A stretch of 64,000 bases of DNA from Paraburkholderia aromaticivorans (GTDB lineage Bacteria > Pseudomonadota > Gammaproteobacteria > Burkholderiales > Burkholderiaceae). Shown one piece after another: positions 8,811-35,560 of this stretch. The stretch is from the NCBI RefSeq assembly GCF_012689525.1, contig NZ_CP051516.1, forward strand, positions 3,906,001 to 3,970,000, in the 5' to 3' direction. How positions within the stretch are numbered: position 1 is the first letter of the stretch; the number at the start of each line of letters is the position of its first letter. The notes under the pieces are model-generated. The model saw nothing but the letters and a program-made list of their open reading frames with translations. It searched no databases and had not been told where the DNA came from. The position numbers and the translations under genes are program-made.

Positions 8811-9042
8811 GCGGGGTCTGCTGCCGAGGGGAGAGAGGAAGTCAGCATTCTAGTGGGTGTCGTGAAGCGGGCCGTCGCGGGCGGGCGCGCGAACGCGTGA
8901 TAGCCCAGTAATGCGAAATCGGATTGCGCCGATGGCGCCGGCCGGTGGCGAGCCGCTATCTTGCTCCGCTCACGCCGTCGCCCGCGCGCCGCGTCCTCCA
9001 CCAACCTGTTCGACAACGCGCCTTTCCGCGCGAGACTCCGCC

Positions 9043-11344
<2,302 letters not shown>

Positions 11345-19706: not shown

Positions 19707-22700
19707 TTACCACTGGTACGAAGCACCCACACCCACCGTCGTGCCTTGCGAGCTCGTACCCGCGCCGGCCTTCATCTTCAGGTTCTCGGTGATACGTGCG
19801 GAGACGCCGAGCGCCACGGCCTGCGAACCCTTGTACGTGCCGCCGCCGATACCGACCGCGATCGTCTTGCCTTGATCGACGTCCGGAATCATCGTCAGCG
19901 CGGTAGCTGCCGCGATACCTGCGTAGGCGCTCTTCGCGACCTGGTCGACGCTGTTCTGCACCGAGTTGATCTGCTTATCGGTGTAGTCCTTCGCCGTCAT
20001 GCCGGCCGGCAGATTGCCGACCGACGAGCCGATTGCGTCGTTCAACTGGCCGACGTTGACTGCGTCGGTCGTTGCCGTACCGGCTGCCACGTTGGTGATC
20101 TGGCGTTCGTTGCCCGCCGAACCCACCGACACCGTGTTGTCACGGTCCGCCACCGAACTCGCACCCAGTGCCACCGAGTTGGCCCCGGTCGCCTTCGCGT
20201 TCGCACCCATCGCCGTGGAATGCGTGCCGCTGGCGACTGCTGCCTCCGTGTCACGGTTGCCGTCTGCTGCGAACATCGGGTTGCTCGCCGCGGTGGCAAT
20301 GTTCGTGACGGTGGAGATCACCGCGTTCATCTGGCTGACGTTGACTGCGTCGTCACCGGCCGTGCCTGCTGCCACGTTGTGGATCGTCGTACCGCCTGTA
20401 GCGCCGTTGCCCATCGTGACGCTGTTGTAGTTGGTCGTACCGTCCGCGTTGTGGTCATACGTCACGGCAGCGTTGGTCGTGCCATCCGGATTGATCACGC
20501 CCGACGCCTTCAACTGCGCGACGTTCACCGCATCTGTATCCGCCGTACCAGCCGCCACGTTGGTGATCTGGCGTTCGTTACCCGCCGAGCCCACCGACAG
20601 CGTGTTGGCACGATCCGCCACTGAGTTCGAACCCAGCGCGACAGAGTTCGCTGCCGTCGCCTTTGCGTTGCCACCGATCGCCACTGCATCCGCACCCGTC
20701 GCCGACGAGTCCGCCAGCGTCGAGTTCGTGTGGAAATACTTGATCCCGCCACCGTTGGTGATGTTATTCACCGTGTTGCTGATGTTGGTGACATTACCCG
20801 CGATGTTCGTCACGTTGCCGCTCAGGTTCGACACGTTATTGCTGACGTTATTGACCTTCGCATCTTCCGACTGCAACTGGCTCACGTTCACCGCATCCGT
20901 TGCATTCAGGCCTGCTGCAACGTTCGTGATGCGACGCTCAGCACCCGCCTTGCCAACCGACACTTCGCCACCAGCTGCCGTGGCAGCCGAGATCGCCGTG
21001 CCGCCAACCGGCGTGAAGCCTGCCGTCGTCAGCGTCGCCGAGTTCGCCACCGAGTTCGAGCCCAGCGCCACCGAGTTCGCCGTCGTCGCCAACGCCGCAC
21101 CACCGATCGCCACTGCATCCGTACCGGTGGCCGACGAATCCGCCAGCGTCGAGTTCGTGTGGAAGTACTTGATGCCGCCACCGTTGGTGATGTTGTTCAC
21201 CGTGTTGCTGATGTTGGTGACATTGCCCGCGATGTTGCTGACGTTGTTGCTCAGGTTCGACATGTTGTTGTTGACCGTGTTCACCTTCGCATCTTCCGAC
21301 TGCAACTGGCTCACGTTCACCGCATCCGTTGCCGCCGAGCCGGCCGCCACGTTCGTCACGCGACGTTCCTTGCCTGCCGAGCCCACCGACACTTCGCCGT
21401 TGGCTGCCGAAGCACTGCCCGAGAGCGTACCCGTGCCCGGGTTGTAACCCGCTGCCGACAGGTTCGCCGTCGTCGTCGAATTCGCGCCCAGCGCTACCGA
21501 GTTTGCTGCCGTGGCCTTGGCGCCGCCACCGACTGCGACCGTATTGGCTCCGATAGCCTGGGCGTTGGTACCCAGTGCGGTGGCGAAGGACGTGCCCCCC
21601 GCGCCGCTGGCCGTCGACGACGCGCCCAGCGCGATGTCGCCAAGGGCCACAGCCGATGCCGAGTTGCCTGCCGCAAAGGTATAGTCAGCGGCAGCCGACG
21701 CATTCGAGCCCAACGCAATTGCGCTTTGTCCCTTGCTGACAGTGCTACTGCCGATGGCCACCGAACTGCTTCCGCTGGAAGTAGCCGCCGTGCCAATCGC
21801 CGTCGCGTTGGCGCCCGTCGCAGACGAATCGGCTCCAGTCGAGTTCACGTGGAAATACTTGATGCCCGCACTGCCGTTGGTGATGTTGTTGACGGTGCTG
21901 TTGATGTTCGTGACGCTGGTGCTCAGGTTGTTCACGTTGTTGTTGACCGTGTTCACCTTCGCATCTTCCGACTGCAACTGGCTTACGTTCACCGCGTCCG
22001 TCGCCGCCGAACCGGCCGCCACGTTCGTCACGCGACGCTCCTTGCCTGCCGAACCCATCGACACTTCACCATTGGCTGCCGAAGCAACACCCGACAGCGT
22101 ACCCGTGCCCGGGTTGTAACCCGCCGCCGACAGGTCCGCCGTCGTTGTCGAATTCGCGCCCAGCGCCACCGAGTTTGCTGCCGTGGCCTTGGCGCCGCCA
22201 CCGACGGCGACCGTATTGGCTCCGATAGCCTGGGCATTGGTACCCAGTGCGGTGGCGAAGGACGTGCCCCCCGCGCCGCTGGCCGTCGACGACGCGCCCA
22301 GCGCGATGTCGCCAAGGGCCACAGCCGATGCCGAGTTGCCTGATGCAAAGCTATAGTCAGCTGCAGCCGACGCATTCGAGCCCAACGCAATTGCGCTTTG
22401 TCCCTTGCTGACAGTGCTACTGCCGATGGCCACCGAACTGCTTCCGCTGGAAGTAGCCGCCGTGCCAATCGCCGTCGCGTTGGCGCCCGTCGCAGACGAA
22501 TCGGCTCCAGTCGAGTTCACGTGGAAATACTTGATGCCCGCACTGCCGTTGGTGATGTTGTTGACGGTGCTGTTGATGTTCGTGACGCTGGTGCTCAGGT
22601 TGTTCACGTTGTTGTTGACCGTGTTCACCTTCGCATCTTCCGACTGCAACTGGCTTACGTTCACCGCGTCCGTCGCCGCCGAACCGGCCGCCACGTTCGT

Positions 22701-24431
22701 CACGCGACGCTCCTTGCCTGCCGAACCCATCGACACTTCACCATTGGCTGCCGAAGCAACACCCGACAGCGTACCCGTGCCCGGGTTGTAACCCGCCGCC
22801 GACAGGTCCGCCGTCGTTGTCGAATTCGCGCCCAGCGCCACCGAGTTTGCTGCCGTGGCCTTGGCGCCGCCACCGACGGCGACCGTATTGGCTCCGATAG
22901 CCTGGGCATTGGTACCCAGTGCGGTGGCGAAGGACGTGCCCCCCGCGCCGCTGGCTGTCGACGACGCGCCCAGCGCGATGTCGCCAAGGGCTACAGCCGA
23001 TGCCGAGTTGCCTGATGCAAAGCTATAGTCAGCTGCAGCCGACGCATTCGAGCCCAGCGCAATCGCGCTTGTTCCCTTACTGACGGCGGAAGTGCCGAGG
23101 GTGACCGAATTGTTTCCGCTGGCGGTTGTTGCTTGGCCAATCGCGGTCGATCCGCTGCCTGAGCTAGTAGCCGCCTGACCCATGGCGATGGTCGCAGTGT
23201 TTTGCGCTTGCGCGTTGTTACCGACCGCCACGGAGTTGTTGCCAATCGCCTTCGATTGTGTGCCGATCGCCGAAGAGTTTGAACCGGAAGCGGTGCTGAG
23301 CGTGCCAAGTGCCGCTGAGTAGCTTCCCGCACCCATTGCGCTTGCGCCCAATGCAATGGAGCGGTCACCGCTAGCTGTCGCGTTCACACCCAAAGCAGTG
23401 GTCGCGCCAGCGCTCGCTTGCGATAACGCACCAACAGCCGTCGAATACATACCCGATGCCGACGCCGATGAGCCGATTGCCGTCGAAGATCCGTCCAGGT
23501 CAGATCCGCCGGGGTTAGCGGCGTACGCAAGGTTACCGATGGCCACTGTGTAGTTGTTGCTGGCTTGGGAATTGGATCCCATGGCGATCGTACCGCTTCC
23601 GCTGGAAGTTGCTGCCATGCCAATCGCAACCGCATTACTCCCCGTCGCCGACGAGTCGGCTCCAGTCGAGTTCGCATGGAAGTACTTGATGCCACCACCG
23701 TTGGTGATGTTGTTCACCGTGCCGTTGATGTTGGTGATGTTACTGTTAAGCCGGCCCAGCGCCGCATCCACCGTGCTGAACGCCGAACCCACGTCGGTTG
23801 CCGCGCCGCTCGTGCCATCGATCGCGTTCGCGTTCGTCAGCGCATAACTCGGCGCATTGATATTGCCCGTAGTTGCGTTAAACGTCGTACCTAGCGCAGT
23901 GGCTGCGGTAGTACCGACGGAGAACAATTGGGACCCGTTTACGGCGTCGAGGCTCGTAGCAGAGAGACCACCAGCGGCCATCCCCTTGATCTGTTTCGCC
24001 GCGCCGGTACCGCCCGTCACGTTGCCGTCACCGTTCATGTACAAGGTGTCCCAGGCGTAGATACCGTTGGCGGCGTGCAGCGTCATGTGCCCACCTTGGG
24101 TGACGGTCAGGAACGCGGGTTCGCTGCGGGTGAAACCTGCACCGTATTTCGTGAACAGGCCAACACCGTCCGTAAATCCGCCGTCTGACGGTAGCGCGCA
24201 GCCTGATGCGTTAATGCCGGCGTTAGTGCCGTTCTGACAAACCTCTACGCCGGCAGCCCCGCTGACGGCAGCCGCCCCCGCATTCGAAATAGCACCCACG
24301 CCAAGCAGCGCGCCCGCAGCCAAAATGGCCGTTGCGGATTTGCCGCTCTTCGTGCGTCCCTTGGCTAACTCCGAAGCTACTGACCAAGAACCCGCGACGT
24401 CATTCCAAACGGTTTTATACGATTTATTCAC
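19707..24431 (-). CDS. Trimeric autotransporter adhesin (YadA/Hia type)
   Basis: The 1574-residue product starts (GTG codon, AGG about 9 nt upstream) with an extended signal peptide region MNKSYKTVWNDVAGSWSV followed by a hydrophobic stretch. The passenger is made of YadA-head motifs such as SVALGSNSVA and AIGTAATSSGS, neck motifs (ERRITNVAAGLNATDAVNVS) and coiled-coil stalk segments (NNVNNLSTSVTNINSTVNNI). The last 75 residues form the membrane anchor, ending AGTSSQGTTVGVGASYQW with a terminal aromatic residue as in outer-membrane proteins. It should trimerise, insert in the outer membrane and project a fibre that binds host, abiotic surface or other cells. Low cysteine content fits the class: I see only two or three cysteines, near the N-terminus. 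An exact-period 224-residue duplication lies in the passenger. The OmpA-like lipoprotein follows. Confidence 0.95.
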   Translation of the reverse strand: MNKSYKTVWNDVAGSWSVASELAKGRTKSGKSATAILAAGALLGVGAISNAGAAAVSGAAGVEVCQNGTNAGINASGCALPSDGGFTDGVGLFTKYGAGFTRSEPAFLTVTQGGHMTLHAANGIYAWDTLYMNGDGNVTGGTGAAKQIKGMAAGGLSATSLDAVNGSQLFSVGTTAATALGTTFNATTGNINAPSYALTNANAIDGTSGAATDVGSAFSTVDAALGRLNSNITNINGTVNNITNGGGIKYFHANSTGADSSATGSNAVAIGMAATSSGSGTIAMGSNSQASNNYTVAIGNLAYAANPGGSDLDGSSTAIGSSASASGMYSTAVGALSQASAGATTALGVNATASGDRSIALGASAMGAGSYSAALGTLSTASGSNSSAIGTQSKAIGNNSVAVGNNAQAQNTATIAMGQAATSSGSGSTAIGQATTASGNNSVTLGTSAVSKGTSAIALGSNASAAADYSFASGNSASAVALGDIALGASSTASGAGGTSFATALGTNAQAIGANTVAVGGGAKATAANSVALGANSTTTADLSAAGYNPGTGTLSGVASAANGEVSMGSAGKERRVTNVAAGSAATDAVNVSQLQSEDAKVNTVNNNVNNLSTSVTNINSTVNNITNGSAGIKYFHVNSTGADSSATGANATAIGTAATSSGSSSVAIGSSTVSKGQSAIALGSNASAAADYSFASGNSASAVALGDIALGASSTASGAGGTSFATALGTNAQAIGANTVAVGGGAKATAANSVALGANSTTTADLSAAGYNPGTGTLSGVASAANGEVSMGSAGKERRVTNVAAGSAATDAVNVSQLQSEDAKVNTVNNNVNNLSTSVTNINSTVNNITNGSAGIKYFHVNSTGADSSATGANATAIGTAATSSGSSSVAIGSSTVSKGQSAIALGSNASAAADYTFAAGNSASAVALGDIALGASSTASGAGGTSFATALGTNAQAIGANTVAVGGGAKATAANSVALGANSTTTANLSAAGYNPGTGTLSGSASAANGEVSVGSAGKERRVTNVAAGSAATDAVNVSQLQSEDAKVNTVNNNMSNLSNNVSNIAGNVTNISNTVNNITNGGGIKYFHTNSTLADSSATGTDAVAIGGAALATTANSVALGSNSVANSATLTTAGFTPVGGTAISAATAAGGEVSVGKAGAERRITNVAAGLNATDAVNVSQLQSEDAKVNNVSNNVSNLSGNVTNIAGNVTNISNTVNNITNGGGIKYFHTNSTLADSSATGADAVAIGGNAKATAANSVALGSNSVADRANTLSVGSAGNERQITNVAAGTADTDAVNVAQLKASGVINPDGTTNAAVTYDHNADGTTNYNSVTMGNGATGGTTIHNVAAGTAGDDAVNVSQMNAVISTVTNIATAASNPMFAADGNRDTEAAVASGTHSTAMGANAKATGANSVALGASSVADRDNTVSVGSAGNERQITNVAAGTATTDAVNVGQLNDAIGSSVGNLPAGMTAKDYTDKQINSVQNSVDQVAKSAYAGIAAATALTMIPDVDQGKTIAVGIGGGTYKGSQAVALGVSARITENLKMKAGAGTSSQGTTVGVGASYQW
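21330..23070 (-). repeat. 672-bp tandem duplication inside the adhesin gene, about 2.6 copies
   Basis: Sequence at 21733-22119 recurs at 22405-22791, an offset of exactly 672 bp (224 codons). The similarity runs from about 21330 to about 23070. The two right-hand copies are nearly identical; the left copy differs at scattered positions (for example GCCGGT-type changes and TCCGCC versus TTCGCC). The period keeps the frame, so copy-number change would alter fibre length without breaking translation. Confidence 0.88.
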
Positions 24432-24655: not shown

Positions 24656-25893
24656 CAGGGCAATCGCATGAAGCTCCCAAGCCAAGCAGCGTCGCGCCGT
24701 AGGAGTCGTTGGCACAGACCTTCAGGCGGGGGCTCTTCGGTCCGAGCTTGGCGGAGGTATCACGTTTGAGCAGATTCATGGCGATACGGCGCAGGATCGC
24801 GAATTTCTGCGCAGCGTTCGGCAACCGGATGCGGCACTTAGTGCTCGCCGAAAGCTATGTCGAGTACCCACCAGTGCATGCCGTTCTGAGCGCGCCAGTA
24901 AGAACGCATTGCATGGGCGTTCCGGCACGCGTTGGCGGGCAGACTGCTGATGTAGTAATGAGATGCTCGGCAGGCGCCACACCGCAGGTCTCGCGCGTGG
25001 CTTCAACCATGGCGAGCGTGCGTGAGCCGGGCCAGCGTCCATCGACCTTGCCAGGCCGGCGTAAGGAGATGTCCCGGCTCACGCAGTGCCGTGTCCATAT
25101 ACGGCCATAGTCGTTGTTAATCTCGCGATATTCATAAACCGTACCTGCGTACTTCGCGGGCCAGTGCTCCAGTGCATCAAAGGTGCCGCTCACCGGGCCC
25201 GCCAGCGCCGACTGACTCCCCTTGACTGCCATACATTGCCAGCCTGCGCGCGGTTGATCTTGCCGGCAATGCGTTCTGGCGACCCATCGCATCAATTGTC
25301 ACAGTCGCGCCCTTGAGCAGCAGTGCATCCAGTAACTCGGGAATCGCGGTGATCTCGTTGCTTCTGTCCGCCGGGCGCACATGCGCCAGTACCATACCGA
25401 GACCACTGCCGTAGGCAGACACCAGGTGCAGTGCCCGCTGCTCGCCGCGATGAGGGTCACGCACCGTCTTGCCGTCAACGGCGAGCACCTCGCCGCTCAG
25501 CGCCACGCAAATTAGCCACCCAGCGCATGAAGCAAGCTTCGAACTGCTGCGCATCTAGCGCGGCAAACCTGCGCCCGAACGTGTCGTGAGACGGTACACC
25601 GTTGACCAGTCGCACGTACCGCCGCAACCGGTCGAGCTTCACCTCGGCCCAGGCCTGAATCTCCCCCAACTGTCGGCACCCGAGAGAATCGCGCACAGCG
25701 CCACCACCAGTATTTCCGTCAGATCATGGACTGGCGTGCGGCTGCGCGCATGGCGCAAATCACAAAACGCCTTTTCAATACTCAGCACTTCCTGCATCAC
25801 GTCTTCCGAACCCGAAAAGGCAGTGGAAACGCGCCTTAAATCGTGCTTACAACCGGCTCTTCACTATCTGTAACGTTTCATGCGATTGCCCTG
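24656..25893 (-). mobile_element. ISAs1-family insertion sequence remnant
   Basis: The inverted repeats CAGGGCAATCGCATGAA at 24656-24672 and its complement at 25877-25893 bound 1238 bp, the usual size for this family. The only gene inside is a broken transposase. No target duplication is visible: the outer flanks AAAAATCTGC and TTAATTGACC differ, so the copy is old or one flank was rearranged. Confidence 0.82.
24690..25797 (-). pseudogene. ISAs1-family (H-repeat type) transposase, frameshifted
   Basis: Reading the minus strand from ATG at 25797, pieces of one transposase occur in several frames: FCDLRHARSRTPVHDLTEIL (DUF4338-like N-terminal part), then after a one-base loss near 25680 GEIQAWAEVKLDRLRRYVRL and FGRRFAALDAQQFEACFMRW, then VLAVDGKTVRDP with HLVSAYGSGLGMVLAHV and SNEITAIPELLDALLLKGAT and VTIDAMG (catalytic core), then QCMAVKGSQSAL, and finally FAILRRIAMNLLKRDTSA. 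Order is that of a complete ISAs1 transposase, so loss of function came from at least three frameshifts plus altered C-terminal sequence. It cannot make an active enzyme. Confidence 0.83.
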
Positions 25894-27747: not shown

Positions 27748-27987
27748 GGTGCGATCTCCCTAAGACTTACCTGGATCGCCCGACACTCGCTTGCAAGGAG
27801 GGTGAGCGGGCATGTAGCGAAGTTGACAGACCGGGCTTGAAACAATCCGGCGAGCCTTGCGACTCCTCCACCACAGCCCGCCCATAGAAAATACAGACGT
27901 GCAGAGATAGACGCACGACCCGCATGGCGAGTGTGCGGTTTCAAGCGGTCGGGTAGCAGCGGCGCATTGCTGCGCCGCCGCCCCCTT

Positions 27988-28021
27988 GAACCGGACGTGC
28001 GAGTCACCCCGCATCCGGCTC
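27988..28021 (-). ncRNA. Group II intron domain V
   Basis: The 34-nt minus-strand segment begins GAGCCGGATGCGGGG and ends CACGTCCGGTTC: the ends pair (GAGCCGGA/TCCGGTTC) and the AGC-type catalytic-triad region is present in slightly variant form. Domain VI follows immediately (a GC-rich hairpin GCGGCGCAGCAATGCGCCGC). The ribozyme core here looks undamaged. Confidence 0.85.
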
Positions 28022-28031
28022 AAGCCATTCT

Positions 28032-29135
28032 TCAGCACCAGGCATTGGCACCGAGCGGTTTGATGGAACGAGTTTTGGTGTGACGGCGGATGAAGTAGTC
28101 GTCCCAAGCTGGATCGAATGGATGGGCGCTGCCGCAGATCTTGACGTACCGCGTAATCGGGACCGTCGATGCCTGGAAACGTTGCAGCCCATGAATACCG
28201 TAAGCCACACTGTCCGTGGCAAAGACCCATGAACGCCATCCATCTACCCGGAAGTATTATTTCCTCCTCACCCACCGTGCTCCTTTCCTGGGATGCCTGC
28301 GTCTTGCCCCGTGCCAGAGCAGTTGCCAGATGTGCGAGTCTACCCATGAGAAAGTCACTTTCGACACAACATGACGGTGATGCATTGCCCATCCCCGAAT
28401 GACCGGGTTAAGCCTGTGTATCAGCGCTTCCTGTGCGCCACTCGCATGGCCTTTGATGATCACTCTGACCTTGTCGAGCAGCGACTTTATGCTTTTCCTC
28501 GCTGGCTTGATCAGTAACTTGCCGCTGTACTTGCGCACGTTCTGACCGAGGAAATCGAAACCGTCCGCCATATTCGTGATCCGGGTTTTTTCTTCTGAGA
28601 GTTCCAGACCCCGAACAGCCATGAATGCCCTGACCGCCGGAAGCACCCGGGATTCCAGTACCTCTTTCGATGCACCGGTCACCACGAAATCATCGGCGTA
28701 GCGGATGACGTTAAGCTTCGCCTGTTTGCGAGCGTGTCTGGAAGCGCCTACACTTGCATGGACCGCTGCTTCCAGTCCGTCTAACGCCATATTCGCGATC
28801 ACGGGTGAGATGACACCCCCTTGCGGGGTGCCGGCCCGTGACTCGAACAGGGTTCCCTCATCGATATCCGGCCTGCATCCACTTGCGCAGGACTTCCTTG
28901 TCCATCGCCGCATTCTCCAGAATCCAGGAGTGACTGAAGTTGTCGAAACAGCCTCGGATATCACCCTCCAGAATCCACTCTGGCGAGGTTCGCCTCGCCA
29001 GAGCGTTGAAGCAGTGCTGGATGTCATCGGCAGTCGAGCGTTCGGCCCGGAAGCCGTAGGAGTTGACATCCGCCAGAGTCTCCGCGATCGGTTCCAGTGC
29101 GAGCTTCCATAAAGCCTGCATCGCCCGGCACCTCA
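28032..29135 (-). pseudogene. 3-prime part of the group II intron reverse transcriptase/maturase
   Basis: From the element A junction the frame reads RCRAMQALWKLALEPIAETL, SYGFRAERSTADD and LEGDIRGCFDNFSHSWIL, then shifts near 28865 and continues RAGTPQGGVISPVIANMALD, the catalytic IRYADDFVVTG, and FDFLGQNVRKYSGK with the maturase X domain. A TAA at 28257-28259 interrupts KGARWVRRK before a C-terminal endonuclease-like tail that reads on to 28032 (SAHPFDPAWDDYF). So this half carries a frameshift and a nonsense codon in addition to the split. The YADD motif itself is intact. Confidence 0.85.
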
Positions 29136-29181
29136 TGCACGGGGACGGTTAGCGCGAACTGCACCAGCGCTCAACGAGTAT

Positions 29182-29469
29182 TTGGGATGGGCTGAGATCT
29201 GCCATCCATTCCATCCGTTAAAAGGTCAACGTTTTCCAGTACTGAAGACCCGGCGCGTCGGCGGGGTTGATACGCTGCTTCTGGGTCATGCAGAACGCGG
29301 CAGCTTCAGCATTGCCCGCGAATGGACCGACTGGGGCATGCCCTCTGTTCACGACGGTGCTGGCGTCACCGCGTGCCGCTTCGATCTGGACATGCTGCTA
29401 GAGCTGATCGACCTGATCGACCAGCTTGCCGTTTCGGCCTCGAAGAAGTCATCCACCAAAGGAGCTTGA
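29182..29469 (+). CDS. DUF5372-like small protein of element A
   Basis: The 95-residue product (TTG start; no ATG available) begins with GWAEICHPFHPLKGQRFPVL, the HPFHPL-G-RF pattern of DUF5372-type proteins that accompany recombinase genes in many bacteria. The C-terminal half is an amphipathic Leu/Ile-rich helix (FDLDMLLELIDLIDQL). It begins 46 bp from the element end. Function is unknown; an accessory DNA-binding or directionality role is conjecture. A similar protein is encoded next to the recombinase of element B. Confidence 0.65.
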   Translation: MGWAEICHPFHPLKGQRFPVLKTRRVGGVDTLLLGHAERGSFSIAREWTDWGMPSVHDGAGVTACRFDLDMLLELIDLIDQLAVSASKKSSTKGA

Positions 29470-29492
29470 TCAATGGATATTCTTGACCTAGT

Positions 29493-29520
29493 ATCAGACC
29501 AGTTAGATACGTGGTCTGAT
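29493..29520. promoter_or_regulatory. 9-bp inverted repeat just before the DUF6788 gene
   Basis: ATCAGACCA (29493-29501) and TGGTCTGAT (29512-29520) are perfect complements around a 10-nt spacer, ending one base before the ATG at 29522. It could be an operator, a recombinase accessory site or an RNA hairpin that blocks the start codon. Confidence 0.5.
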
Positions 29521-29521
29521 C

Positions 29522-29854
29522 ATGCAAGACACACCATCGTCGACTTTGCGCAGGCGTCGTGCCCAGTTGCTGCGGCAAATGCCGGCTCTGGACACGCTGC
29601 TCAGGGGCTCGCTCATCGAGCGCTACAAGCGCTGCGGCAAACCTGGCTGCAAATGTGCCGACGGCCCCGGTCATGGCCCCAAGTATTACCTGTCGGTGAG
29701 TTTTCCCGGCCGCCGGCCACAAATGGACTACGTGCCGCAAGACGATTACGCCGACGTCACCGAGCGCCTGGCGAACTATCACCGGGTTCGCGAGATCATC
29801 GAGGAGATCTGCGAGATCAACCGCGAACTACTGCGCCGCCGCGAGGCGATCTAA
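29522..29854 (+). CDS. DUF6788-like protein of element A
   Basis: The 110-residue product has RGSLIERYKRCGKPGCKCAD, a Cys-rich CGKPGCKC knuckle, then GPKYYLSVSFPGRRPQMDYV and a C-terminal coiled-coil helix (LANYHRVREIIEEICEINRE). This is the layout I know as DUF6788, a small protein of unknown role found beside recombinase and transposase genes. It sits between the DUF5372-like gene and the recombinase on the same strand, so it is probably part of the element's operon. Confidence 0.7.
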   Translation: MQDTPSSTLRRRRAQLLRQMPALDTLLRGSLIERYKRCGKPGCKCADGPGHGPKYYLSVSFPGRRPQMDYVPQDDYADVTERLANYHRVREIIEEICEINRELLRRREAI

Positions 29855-29987
29855 GGGACGTCGGTGAGCCAGACGCCATCGCTCACCGACTGCATCGATC
29901 CGCACCTGGCCGGCGTACTCATCGCCAACATGCTCGAGGCCTGGCTCACCGCCGGGTCCGCGCTGGAACCGAGTGAGGAGGCCGTCG

Positions 29988-30361
29988 ATGAACCCCAAGA
30001 TCACCCCGCAACATCTGGGCAAGCCGGCGTACATTTATATCCGCCAGTCGACGCAAGCCCAGGTGCTGCACCATCAGGAGAGCACCGAGCGCCAGTACGC
30101 GTTGAAGGACAAGGCGCTTGCATTGGGCTGGACCGAAACGGCGATCCGTACGCTGGACCGGGACCTCGGTCACTCGGGCGCGCAGATGACGGGCCGCGAG
30201 GACTTCAAGACGCTGGTGGCGGATGTCTCGATGGGGCAAGTGGGTGCAGTACTTGCCCTGGAGGTGTCACGCCTGGCACGCTCGAACCTGGACTGGCATC
30301 GCCTGCTCGAACTGTGTGCGCTCACTCATACCCTCGTGATCGATTCCGATGGTTGCTACGA
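29988..30361 (+). pseudogene. N-terminal part of element A large serine recombinase
   Basis: Starts MNPKITPQHLGKPAYIYIRQ with AGGAGG 7 nt upstream. The resolvase-type catalytic domain includes the nucleophile serine in YIRQSTQAQVL, LGHSGAQMTGREDFKTLV and VLALEVSRLARSNLDWHRLL. The frame is cut at TACGA (30357-30361) by element B; in the present DNA translation would stop 13 nt later. The rest of the gene resumes at 32837. Rejoined, the protein would be about 688 residues, the same size as recombinase B. Confidence 0.87.
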
Positions 30362-30379
30362 TCGGTCATGTTGATGCCC

Positions 30380-32443
30380 TCATGTGTTTGCTCGCGGGGC
30401 GATAACGAGATGGTTTCGCACGCCCGATTTGAGCTCATGGAGAGCGGATATGCTCTCCGGGGTATTGGGAAACAGGAAACGTTTGTCATGCGAATCGCGC
30501 TGGACACAGATGACGCCGTCGCGGATGCGTCGCTTGATCCACGAGGTCGAAACCTGCAGGGATTGCGCGACATCGGCAACGGTCAACCATCCAGAGATGT
30601 GCCGCGCACGCATTGATCTGGCGTCGTGCAATACACGATGACGCTGCCGGATGAGCTGTACGGTCCGTGCCGGGACATGGCTGCATCGGGCCGAGTGATA
30701 CCCCTCCTGGGACAGTATTCCGGCTATTGTGGCATCGTCGATGCCCTGCCGGGCAAGTTCAAGCACGCGGGCTTCCATCTCGGCGCCCCTGGTGAGTGCC
30801 CGCGCGGCATGCACACGCGGCTCGACCTCCAGTTGGGAGATCTCACCACCTCGCCAGACAACACGGATTGCGATCCGATCACGCGTTACCCGGTGCAGGA
30901 TCACTTTATCAATCAGGGAACGCAGCAGGGCCTTCTTGCTCTCGCGATTGACTTGCGGTCGCTGCCAGATTTCCGGTAGCTGGGTACCGAGCGCAAGAAA
31001 GTCATTTTGCTCTTCAGCACTGAGCGCCTCCGGTTTGCATGCCTCAACCTGATGACGGGCAAGCGCATCCTCCGCCTGTCGCAGTTCGCGCAGCGCCGTT
31101 TCCCACCGCCGTTCAAGCTCGGCAGCAATCAGACGGTTATCCGGATCGACGCGATTGTATTGGCGCTCGGCCAGGAGCGCCTGATAGCGTAGCCGTTCGA
31201 CCTGCTGCACCTCTGCCCGGTTGGCGGCATCACGGGTCTGCTGTCTTGCATGGTTTGCACCCGCCCACGTTTCGAGCTCCGCGGGTCCAACTGCCGCGAG
31301 GAAGGCCTCCACGACCCGCGCATCAATAAGGTCAGCAGGGAGGTGCTGGCATAGTTGGCCACCCTGACTACGCAGCAGATAGTTACAGACGTACCTGTTC
31401 GCATTCTTGTACTGCACCGCCATCTTGTGACCGCATTGCCCGCACCAGACGATGCCCTGGAGCACGGCTGCACCGTCGCGGGGTATCCCGCGCGTCTGGT
31501 TTCGCTGATATTCCGCATGGTTATCGCGCAACATGGCCTGGACCTGTTCGAAACGTTCCCAGTCGAGGTAGACAGGATAACGGTCTTTCACGACGATTTT
31601 CCATTCTGACATAGGACAGCGTTCTGTGATGAGCTTGCCGTTGGCATAAGTCGAATGGCACGACCGGGTTCGACCATAGACGAACGCACCCGCGTAGGCA
31701 GGATTCTTCAGAATCGCCGTGAGCATATTGGCCGTTGGTGAACGCCAGATGATGTCGCCAAACCGGTCGCGCCGCGGCAAGGTCAGCGCGTGATCGCGGA
31801 AGCGGCGCATTACTTTGCCCACCGACCCAAGACCCAGAAACGTCGTAAAGATCAGCGATACCCGATCCTGCACCTCCTGGTTCGGATCTTTATGCACCAT
31901 GCCGTTGGTGTCGCGCTCGAGTCCTGCGGGTAGCAGCAACGCCAGTTCACCGCGCTTTGCCTTGTTCAGCAGTCCGGCCGTCAGGCGGCCACGCAGGGTG
32001 TGCAACTCGACCTCGGAAATCGTGCCCTTCAAACCCAGCAAAAGGCGTCCGTTCGCAGAACCCGGATCATATACGCCATCGCGATCGCCGATAAGACATT
32101 GGCGAAACCCACACAGATCCAGCAAGGGATACCAGTCCGTGCAATTACGTGCAAGCCGGGTTACTTCGTACGAGAGGATGATGCCGACCTCGCCCAGGGT
32201 CACGCGGGCAATCACATCCTTGAAGCCCTCACGATGCGAAAGCGTCGAGCCACTTAGGCCAAGATCCATGTCGACCACCTCGATATTCGCATCATCCCAG
32301 CCCAGATCGCTTGCCCGCTGGCGCAGCGCATACTGCAATCGCAGGCTTTCCTGATTGGTTACTACCTGGTTCGGAGTGGATTGCCTGATATAGATTATTG
32401 CCTTACGGCACAGATGTCGGGCCGTTACAAGTTCCGATGTCAT
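30380..32443 (-). CDS. Large serine recombinase of element B, intact
   Basis: The 687-residue product (ATG 32441-32443, GAGGGA upstream) contains the resolvase catalytic domain (residues about 12-150; nucleophile in YIRQSTPNQVV, LSYEVTRLARNCTDWYPLLD), the recombinase domain with FGDIIWRSPTANMLTAILKN and NPAYAGAFVYGRTRS, and a zinc ribbon (WCGQCGHKM...CNYLL...QLC). Then come a coiled-coil region (AELERRWETALRELRQAEDA) and a C-terminal excisionase-like helix-turn-helix (LTVADVAQSLQVSTSWIKRR). Catalysis is site-specific strand exchange by serine linkage. It has no frameshift or stop, so it may be active. Its start overlaps the upstream DUF5372-like stop as ATGA, implying coupled translation. Confidence 0.9.
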   Translation of the reverse strand: MTSELVTARHLCRKAIIYIRQSTPNQVVTNQESLRLQYALRQRASDLGWDDANIEVVDMDLGLSGSTLSHREGFKDVIARVTLGEVGIILSYEVTRLARNCTDWYPLLDLCGFRQCLIGDRDGVYDPGSANGRLLLGLKGTISEVELHTLRGRLTAGLLNKAKRGELALLLPAGLERDTNGMVHKDPNQEVQDRVSLIFTTFLGLGSVGKVMRRFRDHALTLPRRDRFGDIIWRSPTANMLTAILKNPAYAGAFVYGRTRSCHSTYANGKLITERCPMSEWKIVVKDRYPVYLDWERFEQVQAMLRDNHAEYQRNQTRGIPRDGAAVLQGIVWCGQCGHKMAVQYKNANRYVCNYLLRSQGGQLCQHLPADLIDARVVEAFLAAVGPAELETWAGANHARQQTRDAANRAEVQQVERLRYQALLAERQYNRVDPDNRLIAAELERRWETALRELRQAEDALARHQVEACKPEALSAEEQNDFLALGTQLPEIWQRPQVNRESKKALLRSLIDKVILHRVTRDRIAIRVVWRGGEISQLEVEPRVHAARALTRGAEMEARVLELARQGIDDATIAGILSQEGYHSARCSHVPARTVQLIRQRHRVLHDARSMRARHISGWLTVADVAQSLQVSTSWIKRRIRDGVICVQRDSHDKRFLFPNTPESISALHELKSGVRNHLVIAPRANT

Positions 32444-32787
32444 GGCTTGTCCCTCGAGGCAGCAACCGTATTCTGTAAATCGCAATTCCCATCTATTATC
32501 AAGCACTCCTTATTTAAATAGAAGACTGATCCATGATTTTCTGGTGACTCCAGCTCTCTGGCCACACGAACCAGTTCCCGGACGCTATCGGCCGATAGTT
32601 TGCTCGATGGTAGACGCTCAGACGTCGGACGGAGAGAAGTCGCCACCACCGGAATTTTTAACAGGACGTCGTCCCGATAAGCGACGGTGACTTGACCATA
32701 TGCGCCGACCGTGGCCGCCGATGCCACGACAGCAAAGGTGCGGCCATACAGCGGATGGGCGGGATCAGTGACAGTTACCTGTTCCAG
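32440..32787 (-). CDS. DUF5372-like small protein coupled to recombinase B
   Basis: The minus-strand frame reads VTVTDPAHPLYGRTFAVVAS, then VAYRDDVLLKIPVVATSLRP and SSKLSADSVRELVRVARELE, and ends in TGA overlapping the recombinase ATG. The HPLYGRTF and VAYR...IPVVAT patterns recall DUF5372 and parallel the small gene of element A. The start is uncertain: the only ordinary start codon is GTG at 32727, which would remove the HPLYGR motif, while the frame stays open to the element end. It may start at a CTG (used here) or have lost its start on insertion. Confidence 0.55.
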   Translation of the reverse strand: MEQVTVTDPAHPLYGRTFAVVASAATVGAYGQVTVAYRDDVLLKIPVVATSLRPTSERLPSSKLSADSVRELVRVARELESPENHGSVFYLNKECLIIDGNCDLQNTVAASRDKP

Positions 32788-32836
32788 CCGCCCTGTTGGC
32801 AGCCGAACAGGGGTACCAAGATGTGTCCTCGTACGA

Positions 32837-34528
32837 CCCGGGCGACTTCAACGACGGCCTGCTTCTCGGTCTCAAAGGCACGATGGCTCAGGCCGAACTC
32901 CATTTTCTGCGCGGGCGCCTCCAGGGCGGCAAGCTCAACAAGGCGCAGAAGGGAGAGTTGCGCTTTCCGCTACCAGTCGGCCTGTGCTATGACGGTGAAG
33001 ACCGCATCGTCCTGGATCCTGATGACGAAGTGCGCGGCGCCGTGCAACTGGTATTCCGTCTGTTCCGCGAAACCGGTAGTGCGTACGCTGTCGTCAAGCG
33101 GTTTGCCGAAGACGGGCTACGCTTTCCGAAGCGCGCCTACGGAGGAGCCTGGGCGGGCAAACTCATCTGGGGACGACTGAGTCACGGACGTGTGCTCGGA
33201 TTGATCATGAATCCGTCGTATGCAGGCGTCTACGTCTTTGGGCGCTATCAGTACCGCCAGCGCATCACACCACAGGGAGAGGTGCTCAAGCGCGTGCAGC
33301 CGGTTCCGAAGACCGACTGGCGCGTCCATCTGCCCGGGCACCACGAAGGGTACATTACCCCGGAGGAGTTTGAGCAGAATCAGGCCCGCCTGGCGCGCAA
33401 CCGGACGAACGGTGAAGGTACCTGTTGAGTGGCCCGGCGCGCGAAGGGCTCGCGTTGCTGCAGGGACTGCTGGTGTGCGCACGCTGTGGCCGGGCAATCA
33501 CGGTACGCTACCAGGGTCACGGCGGCATCCGCCCGATCTATCTGTGCAGCAAGCAGCGCCACCAAGGTTTGGCGACCAGGGATTGCGTGTATGTGCGCAG
33601 CGACCTGCTCGACAACGTGATCGGCGAAGCGGTGCTCACGGCGCTGCGCCCGGCCGAACTCGAACTCGCCGTCACGGCCCTGCAGGAGCTTGAGCAACGC
33701 GACCTCGCCATCATGCGTCAGTGGCACATGCGCATCGAGCGCGCCGAATACGAGACTGCCCTCGCCGAACGGCGCTACCAGGAGTGCGACCCCGCCAACC
33801 GGTTGGTCGCAGGCACCCTCGAACGACGCTGGAACGACGCGTTGCTTCGTCTCGAATCGATCAGGACGGAAGCCACCCAATTCCAGAGCCAGAAGGCGCG
33901 CGTCGTCACGGCGGAGCAGAAGGCCCAGGTCCTCGCATTGGCGCGCGATCTGCCACGCCTGTGGCGAGCTCCGACCACCCCGGCGAAGGAGCGCAAACGT
34001 ATGCTGCGACTCCTCATCAAGGACATCACGGTGGAGAAATTGCTCGACCAACGGCAGCTCGTTCTGCATGTGCGCTGGCAAGGCGGTGCCTGCACCGACA
34101 TCACTGTCAATCTGCCCAGGCCGGCTCCCGAAGCGATACGTTGTCCGGCGGAAATCGTCGAGCAGGTCCGCAGACTGTCTCAGCAGCTGTCCGATCTGCA
34201 AATCGTCGCACACCTCAATCAGGAAGGGCTGCGCAGCCCCCATGGCAAGCCTTTTACGCTCGCCATGATCAAATGGATCCGCTACAAGTACGCCATTCCA
34301 GCGACTTGCCTGATACGCCCTGACGAACTCACCGTGCAGCAACTCGCCGGGCGCTTGCGGGTCAGCATGCACGTCGTCTATTACTGGATCGAGCGCCGTA
34401 TCGTCGAAGCACGTAAGCTTGATGATCGGAGGGGGTGGTGGATTGCGCTGGACAGCACCAAGGAACAAGAACTTCGAGACTGGGTGCGTACTTCAGCGCA
34501 TCTGAAGCCGCAACATTCCAACACTTAA
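32837..34528 (+). pseudogene. C-terminal part of element A large serine recombinase, frameshifted
   Basis: Continues from PGDFNDGLLLGLKGTMAQAE through the recombinase domain (GKLIWGRLSHGRVLGLIMNP, SYAGVYVFGRYQYRQ) to NRTNGEGT, where a one-base loss near 33418 gives a stop at 33426-33428. The following frame reads GPAREGLALLQGLLVCARCG (zinc ribbon), a coiled coil, and the C-terminal helix-turn-helix ELTVQQLAGRLRVSMHVVYY. The recombinase is therefore dead twice over: split by element B and frameshifted. Element A could move now only if a recombinase is supplied in trans. Confidence 0.87.
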
Positions 34529-34552
34529 CTGTGAGAGTGCATTATGAAACCA

Positions 34553-34946
34553 CCGTCGGGATTCCTAACGGACGCTTTTTCCCATTACTCTTGGGAATGT
34601 AGACGCGCCGCAGCGGCATCGTGCGATAGCCCCGATGACGTAGCGACAACATTCCGTTCCATCTGGCCGCCGGAGATGACCAGACCCTACCGTCCACCCC
34701 CGGCGTTCTCTTACCGCGATTTTCCGTCACCCGCTTCACAGCAAGCATCTTGCCGTTATGCGAGCGGGTCAGCAGATGTTGCAAGGCCTTCGCCTTGCCC
34801 CACCCGTTTTCCCGGACTGCCTTGGCGATACGCATCTGAAGCCGCTTCACGTCGGCCGCGATGCGTGACCAGTTCGCCTGATCCCACATGACTCTGGCGT
34901 GCGAGGGCGCACCAGTGTCCAATGCTTTCGCACCGTTCGCCGTCAT
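34553..34946 (-). pseudogene. 5-prime part of the group II intron reverse transcriptase
   Basis: Starts MTANGAKALDTGAPSHARVM with GAGGGA upstream of ATG at 34946 and runs through WSRIAADVKRLQMRIAKAVR, KRTPGVDGRVWSSPAARW and LRRVYIPKSNGKKRPLGIPT, the RT0-RT1 region. It is cut at GIPT by element A, after which an unrelated VVS and a stop are read. The continuation is at 29135. Confidence 0.88.
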
Positions 34947-35560
34947 CTGCTTTCCCTCGTACAACGGTTAGTCAAAGATTCTCTCGCCATGAATGACCAT
35001 GGGGAAGTCTGCCCGCTTTCGCGTCGGACAATGTTTCAGCCCGTATCCTGTCCATTACAGAAAGGCTTTCGCTTTTTCCGCACTCCTTTACCCGCATCAC
35101 CAAAAGCTTTCCTTACGGTCGACCTGCCCATTGGGCGGCGATACGGGCTCACCCTGTTCCGCATGACTCTCGGGATGCTGCGGACCTGTCCTACTGCGCC
35201 GGCGGCGTTCTGTCCATGATGGCCCAAGCCTGAGAGGAGACCATTCCTCGCCGCGTACCGTTTTGGTTCAAGCCTGTCAGCACGTTTGGCTTGTTGTTTG
35301 TGACGACACGTATCAGACATTCACATATGTTGGTCGTACCCATCCATCCCTTGCACCTCTCCGCCTTCGTGCTGGCAGATTCCGTCTTGCCTCGCAGCTC
35401 GACGTACCGGGTATTCGGCAGTTGCTTTGTCCCCGGAGCTTCACACCAAGCCGTTGCCAGCTTCGCATGTCCGGGTAGGGAACGGCTGATGGAACAGCCG
35501 GTTTCATCAGAGTTACTGCGCTCGGTGAAACAGAGAATCACGCGACTTTGCAGGTCGCAC
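34947..35560 (-). ncRNA. Group II intron 5-prime ribozyme region (domains I to IV)
   Basis: These 614 nt between the GTGCGACC start and the RT start codon hold no gene. Their position and length correspond to domains I-III and the start of domain IV, the structured part that pairs with the 5-prime exon and forms the core. I did not fold it or assign exon-binding sites. Confidence 0.65.

Follow-up and report, generated by a model that had tools for sequence, protein, structure and literature searches.

Serine-recombinase transposons that appear to strike conserved codons in the mobility genes of other elements: a three-level nest in Paraburkholderia aromaticivorans

We present the analysis of a 64,000-nucleotide stretch of the Paraburkholderia aromaticivorans genome (genome G000, 10.84 Mb; G000:C3:3906001-3970000, hereafter the window), in which a minus-strand group II intron carries an element A in its reverse transcriptase (RT) gene, and element A in turn carries an element B in its own serine-recombinase gene (Table 1). 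The interest of the locus lies in the targeting and not in the nesting: A and B appear to belong to a family whose members each insert at a precisely defined, conserved point within an enzyme gene of some other mobile element, and B seems to specialise in its cousins. Judged from comparison of sequences, the probability is roughly 0.83 that A and B are small transposons of one superfamily, moved by large serine recombinases (LSRs), each clade using conserved codons of a mobility enzyme as its attB. The wider proposition, which we regard as probable, is that a widespread superfamily of minimal serine-recombinase transposons may live on other transposons, each clade reading one mobility-enzyme motif as DNA, while the B clade would be a third-order parasite that reads the motif shared by the superfamily itself and so could break the recombinase gene of any cousin, regardless of what that cousin preys on.

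The insertion site of A was strikingly constant. In all 16 loci of the A family (the window, L016, L024-L029, L040-L044, L057, L058 and L065), a group II RT is interrupted at the point that corresponds to the GI-P codons in the window, 11 loci showing both gene pieces and five showing one, and this holds for RTs that share with that of the window 53–63% identity in L016 and 25–41% in L024-L029. The core CC was present at 9/9 sites examined, and joining the halves at this core gave an in-frame RT of LGIP-, LSIP- or LGVP-type in eight of the nine, the window being the exception. The residues at the site differ in L043, L058 and L065 (IAT, RIA), and the orientation of A is reversed in L029 and L065; L024 and L040, whose recombinases are identical, may represent one strain. 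A search with the window's intron returned 20 loci including the window itself, and among the 13 that were read 11 were uninterrupted, with LGIPCM(K/R)CRAMQ or a near variant at the site, while the other two (L100, L103) carry an A-type end there. Empty sites for A, whose existence the sequence-only reading of this DNA had proposed to check, are therefore found in related introns, and the corresponding empty site for B is provided by the recombinases of all 14 A-family loci beyond the window and L016, none of which contains B.

It can be seen from these uninterrupted sites that the RT junction of the window lies one base away from where the sequence-only reading had placed it. Four C stand at the junction where three are expected, so that the two pieces joined at CC are out of frame, and the RT is also 2 bases short near 28866. 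A core TG, implied by the earlier join GIPT/VRCRAM, was considered and rejected, as the letters for PTV come from the end of A itself and the uninterrupted sites disagree with it. The elements delimited in that reading (A at 29136-34552, B at 30362-32836) are real, and their boundaries move by a few bases to those of Table 1. Its statement that both reconstructions are frame-exact is upheld for B, since the halves of recombinase A rejoined at B match the intact relative L024 with an unbroken CYDPGDFNDG, and fails for A in the RT; both genes carry further indels, of 2 bases in the RT and 1 base in recombinase A, which could be real or sequencing errors.

Besides its recombinase, A carries genes for DUF5372 and DUF6788, and the same gene trio is found in A relatives on plasmids of Cupriavidus, Paraburkholderia and Caballeronia. 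A second A with B inside it lies in G000 (L016), 100% identical over 29138-34559, in another intron with divergent flanks. As A and B are thus already combined in two different introns, the order intron, A, B, which had been regarded as fixed, is not established: B entered an A recombinase, after which A with B either moved as a unit or spread by conversion, and the history of the window may have been the intron followed by A and B together. Used as a probe, DUF5372 (PF17342) was detected in 7/398 genomes. Two of the loci found with this probe, L130 and L132, have one side ending in istA and RT sequence, and L138, the same G000 element as L019, has one side at the IstB Walker A motif and another, wrongly oriented piece of IstB.

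For the B family, the target is another serine recombinase. All nine insertions split the gene at the Tyr codon of the motif DGxYDP, with TA on both sides, and they include six relatives of B, 68–90% identical to it, in L009 (Paraburkholderia podalyriae) and L030-L034 (rhizobial and Rhodovastum plasmids). The nine distinct sites share the pattern ..GA....GA.GG....TA..A.CC.., which corresponds to the codons D-x-D-G-x-Y-D/N-P; agreement is 9/9 in each column shown, save one column at 8/9. In three of the nine (L009, L015, L031) B lies in the opposite orientation relative to its victim, an outcome which the palindromic TA core would allow. Within G000 there are four copies of B with 99.8–100% DNA identity, two in the two copies of A and two in different recombinase genes (L015, L017), all flanked by serine-recombinase pieces. 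The L017 copy is itself interrupted at 8861-10023 by about 1.2 kb with a 6-base end repeat, a further level of nesting.

The victims of B, assigned to clades by the best match of their recombinase pieces, are diverse. They belong to the RT clade (window, N-terminal piece 90–91%), the IS66-tnpB clade (L015, 85–90%), the istB clade (L017, 88–95%), the ISNCY clade (L009, 58–80%), the clade of L088 (L030, 58–82%) and the IS66-tnpC clade (L034, 92–94%), whereas L032 and L033 are distantly L087-like (45–66%, the C-terminal piece of L033 comprising 26 residues). In L031 the N-terminal piece resembles the IS66-tnpB kind, as does the left flank, and the C-terminal piece and the flank to the right are istA-like; the victim there appears chimeric, made up of one element in IS66 tnpB and one in istA, as would result from recombination between two copies of B. 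A B-type recombinase is absent from the best three matches of every B victim; the gene of recombinase B itself holds a full match to the target-site consensus, and no B inside B was seen in the loci examined. As its victims span several clades, B looks like a third-order parasite. Nests with both sides visible at every level are those of the window, L016 and L034, the last being an IS66 tnpC broken at 454/451 by an element which B splits in turn. A search for B in the bacterial family at E 1e-150 found it in 1/398 genomes, the window's own, and since the best two candidates per genome were scored this constrains the true frequency little. Two B-like loci, L012 (P. sediminicola) and L095, are fragments without ends.

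Systematic examination was extended to 70 recombinase loci, made up of 4, 10 of 535 records, 16 of 467 records, 25, a phylum sample of 9 and 6 places in G000. A conserved motif of a mobile-element gene could be assigned as the target in 58 of them, 44 from both sides and 14 from one; the DUF5372-probe loci L130, L132, L133-L135 and L138 are excluded from this figure. Across the superfamily the split motifs comprise the DDE-glutamate region (IS21, ISNCY, IS66, IS3), the IstB Walker A, IS66 TnpB motifs, several group II RT motifs and the LLGH of a tyrosine recombinase. IS66 tnpB is split at three places, namely residues 49-54 (L051-L053), 69-72 (L050, L063) and about 89-101 (L036-L039), and IS66 tnpC after NNAAERALRG (L091, L092). 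IS21 istA is split beside KG-I-VE (L067, L068, L128, both sides), ISNCY at AKG/RVERMNG (L069-L071), IS21 istB at the Walker A (L055, L056, L079, L080) and at a second place (L123), IS3 at two places (L090, L125), the RT motif DIxGCFD in L049, L124 and one side of L011, and the tyrosine recombinase at LLGH in L088. An identical element of 3327 bases sits at the same codon of two IS21 istA genes that are only 27–32% identical. The abutting halves meet at adjoining profile positions (ISNCY 237|236, IS21 225|228), and matches in NCBIfam and Pfam bear out the identity of the tested pieces as IS21, IstB, ISNCY, IS3 and tyrosine recombinase, while the IS66 names are taken from plasmid annotation. The DDE glutamate, Walker A and RT motif A are presumably catalytic.

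The target follows the phylogeny of the recombinase. On a quick maximum-likelihood tree of 47 recombinases, 11 target labels required 10 changes, which is the minimum; with 'undetermined' counted as a label the number rose to 12, where 11 is the least possible and shuffling gave a mean of 32.2, a result that near copies favour. Every target represented by more than one row forms a single clade, istB being the exception: its clade also takes in L019, of which one end lies at the istB Walker A. In this tree L034 was dropped because its longest open reading frame (ORF) is that of the victim, L009 and L032 are partial, L061 carried the ISNCY label though its target was not seen, and L088 still stood as 'undetermined'. 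Ten further loci were then chosen on the recombinase alone with their flanks unseen, and nine of them lay at such a motif, eight from both sides; they included two Streptomyces RTs and two cyanobacterial RTs. These ten were drawn from the list of 467 matching records, in which adjacent rows had already hinted at istB and IS21.

Two observations from the same loci deserve mention. The cyanobacterial elements in group II RTs have an extra gene on the minus strand after the recombinase (L120 5179-6138, L122 5188-6147). A distant serine-recombinase element of about 2.03 kb, termed F, is the third such element of G000 and occurs at L016 6047-8075, L020 7147-9175 and L021 6818-8875; in L016 it sits in the PQGG-ISP codons of the RT of the intron that also holds A, and in L021 in another RT, making two group II RTs in total.

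Several points weigh against a general specialisation of the superfamily. Twelve of the 70 loci are without an assigned target (L010, L012, L018, L019, L035, L061, L087, L089, L093, L095, L097, L121), and in the phylum sample 4/9 new loci were assigned and 5/9 were not, so specialisation may be weaker away from the A and B clades. The panel of targets consists of mobile-element proteins, with which host genes cannot be named. A host TreZ gene with an intact 3' end lies upstream of L089, and L093 neighbours an IS630 gene that seems to be complete at its 3' end. Many of the loci are near copies or top-ranked matches, and single cores are defined for the A and B clades only.

These points bear mostly on the possibility that the elements are ordinary site-specific LSRs, for which conserved codons generally make a good attB and mobile-element genes are merely common; without specialisation, other members would sit in host genes. 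Passages of Durrant et al. (2022, PMC10083194) do describe LSRs whose attB lies within conserved host coding sequence, and the unassigned loci, together with the non-transposon neighbours of L087 and L089, lean the same way. However, all the assigned targets are mobility genes of several unrelated kinds (RT, serine and tyrosine recombinases, DDE transposases, IstB, TnpB), even though the panel could not have revealed host genes, and we hold this explanation to be unlikely. Passive nesting, in which LSR elements of low specificity hit mobile-element genes by chance because genomes and plasmids are full of them, would agree with hosts rich in insertion sequence (IS) elements and introns, where nested insertions as such are ordinary. 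Against it, host genes of low similarity are hit at one and the same codon, as seen from both sides of the element and in different phyla; insertion at the same codon in divergent hosts rejects chance nesting for the A and B clades, where it is already contradicted, and leaves it standing for the unassigned members only, so that as an overall account it is scarcely credible. Split genes do recur in unrelated contexts, which the sequence-only reading had counted as evidence against a nest; the elements interrupt host genes that are unrelated to each other, each time at the same codon, and the recurrence arises because the elements are site-targeted. That the window's structure is an artefact of assembly or sequencing can practically be set aside: the indels of both split genes do lie at short runs (CCCC, ATAT) and are possibly sequencing errors, but like junctions occur in further genomes, as well as in plasmids whose records carry the label 'complete sequence'.

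Under the preferred reading of clade-specific targeting of mobility genes, the attB of the A clade would be the GI-P codons of group II intron RTs with core CC, and that of the B clade the Tyr codon of the DGxYDP motif in cousin serine recombinases with core TA, the recombinase of each element presumably joining its attP to such an attB. Transposon genes may be favoured as targets because they occur widely and in multiple copies and the cell can do without them. The small genes (DUF5372, DUF6788 and the ORF of B, for which a Pfam search matched no family) could be accessory, perhaps directionality, factors. A with B inside it might have reached the second intron by means of a recombinase supplied in trans, through an earlier working A, or by gene conversion.

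The features of A and B are those of LSR elements. The domain order is an N-terminal Resolvase followed by Recombinase and Zn-ribbon, in proteins of 708 (B), 690 (L024) and 694 (L037) residues, and Pfam thereby confirms the earlier assignment of both elements to serine recombinases. A short core flanks the elements at both junctions without a long target duplication (TA at 9/9 B sites, CC at 9/9 A sites), and the imperfect inverted repeats at the ends of A and B, read by eye and without a statistic, are consistent with symmetric attP arms. The LSR elements in the passages of PMC10083194 at hand (Durrant et al. 2022) share these domains, the short core, the tight specificity and an attB in conserved coding sequence, such as the genes for prolyl isomerase and magnesium chelatase; the targets here, in contrast, are mobility genes of other elements, with one clade hitting the recombinases of its cousins, of which those passages make no mention. 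The same passages report the domain DUF4368 in 63% of the multi-targeting LSR clade; it was not found among the Pfam matches of B (E 0.001) or of L024 and L037 (E 0.1), although it is not universal in that clade.

Streptococcal integrative and conjugative elements with a serine-integrase triplet, as described in passages of PMC4701971, offer a precedent in that their targets include traG of another such element, besides mutT and hsdM, with direct repeats of 2–8 bp. Those are conjugative and use three integrases, whereas the superfamily described here has a single recombinase, measures about 2.5–3.4 kb and has several transposon targets. Transposons of the IS607 family, going by the abstract of PMC4058570, are likewise small and moved by a serine recombinase but have an inverted domain order; here the catalytic domain comes first, the Resolvase domain of B lying at residues 36-187 of 708 with the other domains after it, and the target is specific. 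Literature searches within open-licence PubMed Central text retrieved nothing whose title or abstract describes such targeting of mobile-element genes.

The intron that hosts the nest has the parts of a bacterial group II intron, with the difference that it is here the victim, its RT gene broken by A. The Rfam model D1-D4-7 matches at 35353-35501 (122.5 bits) and Intron_gpII, the D5-D6 model, at 27948-28023 (46.2 bits), both on the minus strand, with the RT/maturase ORF in between; together with the Pfam matches to the pieces of the RT and of recombinase A and to the intact recombinase B, they bear out the three-level nest that had been claimed.

Table 1. Coordinates of the intron, elements A and B and their genes in the window.
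Feature	Position	Strand	Remarks
Group II intron hosting the nest	27948..35560	-	5' end GUGCGACC at 35560 (by eye), 3' end 27948
Intron RT, C-terminal piece	28260..29141	-	RVT_1 and GIIM (Pfam); 2-base deletion near 28866; one extra C at junction
Element A, containing B	29144..34557	+	core GG at 29142-29143 and 34558-34559 (CC in RT sense)
DUF5372 (Y4bD/Y4pK) gene of A	29182..29469	+	PF17342; same gene in relatives
DUF6788 gene of A	29522..29854	+	PF20586
Recombinase A, N-terminal piece	29988..30358	+	to TA of the Tyr codon; Resolvase domain; 90–91% identity to A relatives
Element B	30359..32831	-	2473 bases between TA cores 30357-30358 and 32832-32833
Recombinase B, intact	30380..32506	-	708 residues from first listed start codon; Resolvase, Recombinase, Zn-ribbon
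Small ORF of B upstream of recombinase	32440..32727	-	small hypothetical gene at same place in L031, L033
Recombinase A, C-terminal piece	32832..34528	+	Recombinase, Zn-ribbon; 1-base deletion near 33422
Intron RT, N-terminal piece	34560..34964	-	ends at codons GI of GI-P; RVT_N (Pfam), uninterrupted relatives

To the right of the intron, upstream of it, lie a small gene, proA and leuS; the LeuS protein is 94% and 95% identical to its counterparts in the genomes that carry L009 (P. podalyriae) and L012 (P. sediminicola), which points to a Paraburkholderia host. Downstream, just past the 3' end of the intron, is a match to C4 antisense RNA at 27798-27889 on the minus strand (59.7 bits, gathering threshold 45). 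Further along the same strand are a fragment of an ISAs1-family transposase (NF033564) at 25177-25554 and, at 19707-24431, a gene for a large trimeric-autotransporter-like protein of 1574 residues, in which the final 180 residues hit several autotransporter models over their C-terminal part, with scores under the cut-offs.

Overall, if the targeting proposed here is true, nature would have supplied an example of transposons whose clades are each specialised for enzyme genes of other transposons and are in turn exploited by one more parasite, and the targeting suggests why a selfish element picks such codons, which are present in many genomes, often in multiple copies, and whose loss is cheap to the cell. 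The superfamily would offer a natural series of related LSRs with differing known target sites for learning how LSRs read DNA, of practical use in genome engineering, along with naturally occurring evidence of how orientation is freed when the core is a palindrome. One class of the broken IS and intron genes met in annotated genomes would also be explained, and such elements could act as a possible brake on the spread of IS elements and introns.

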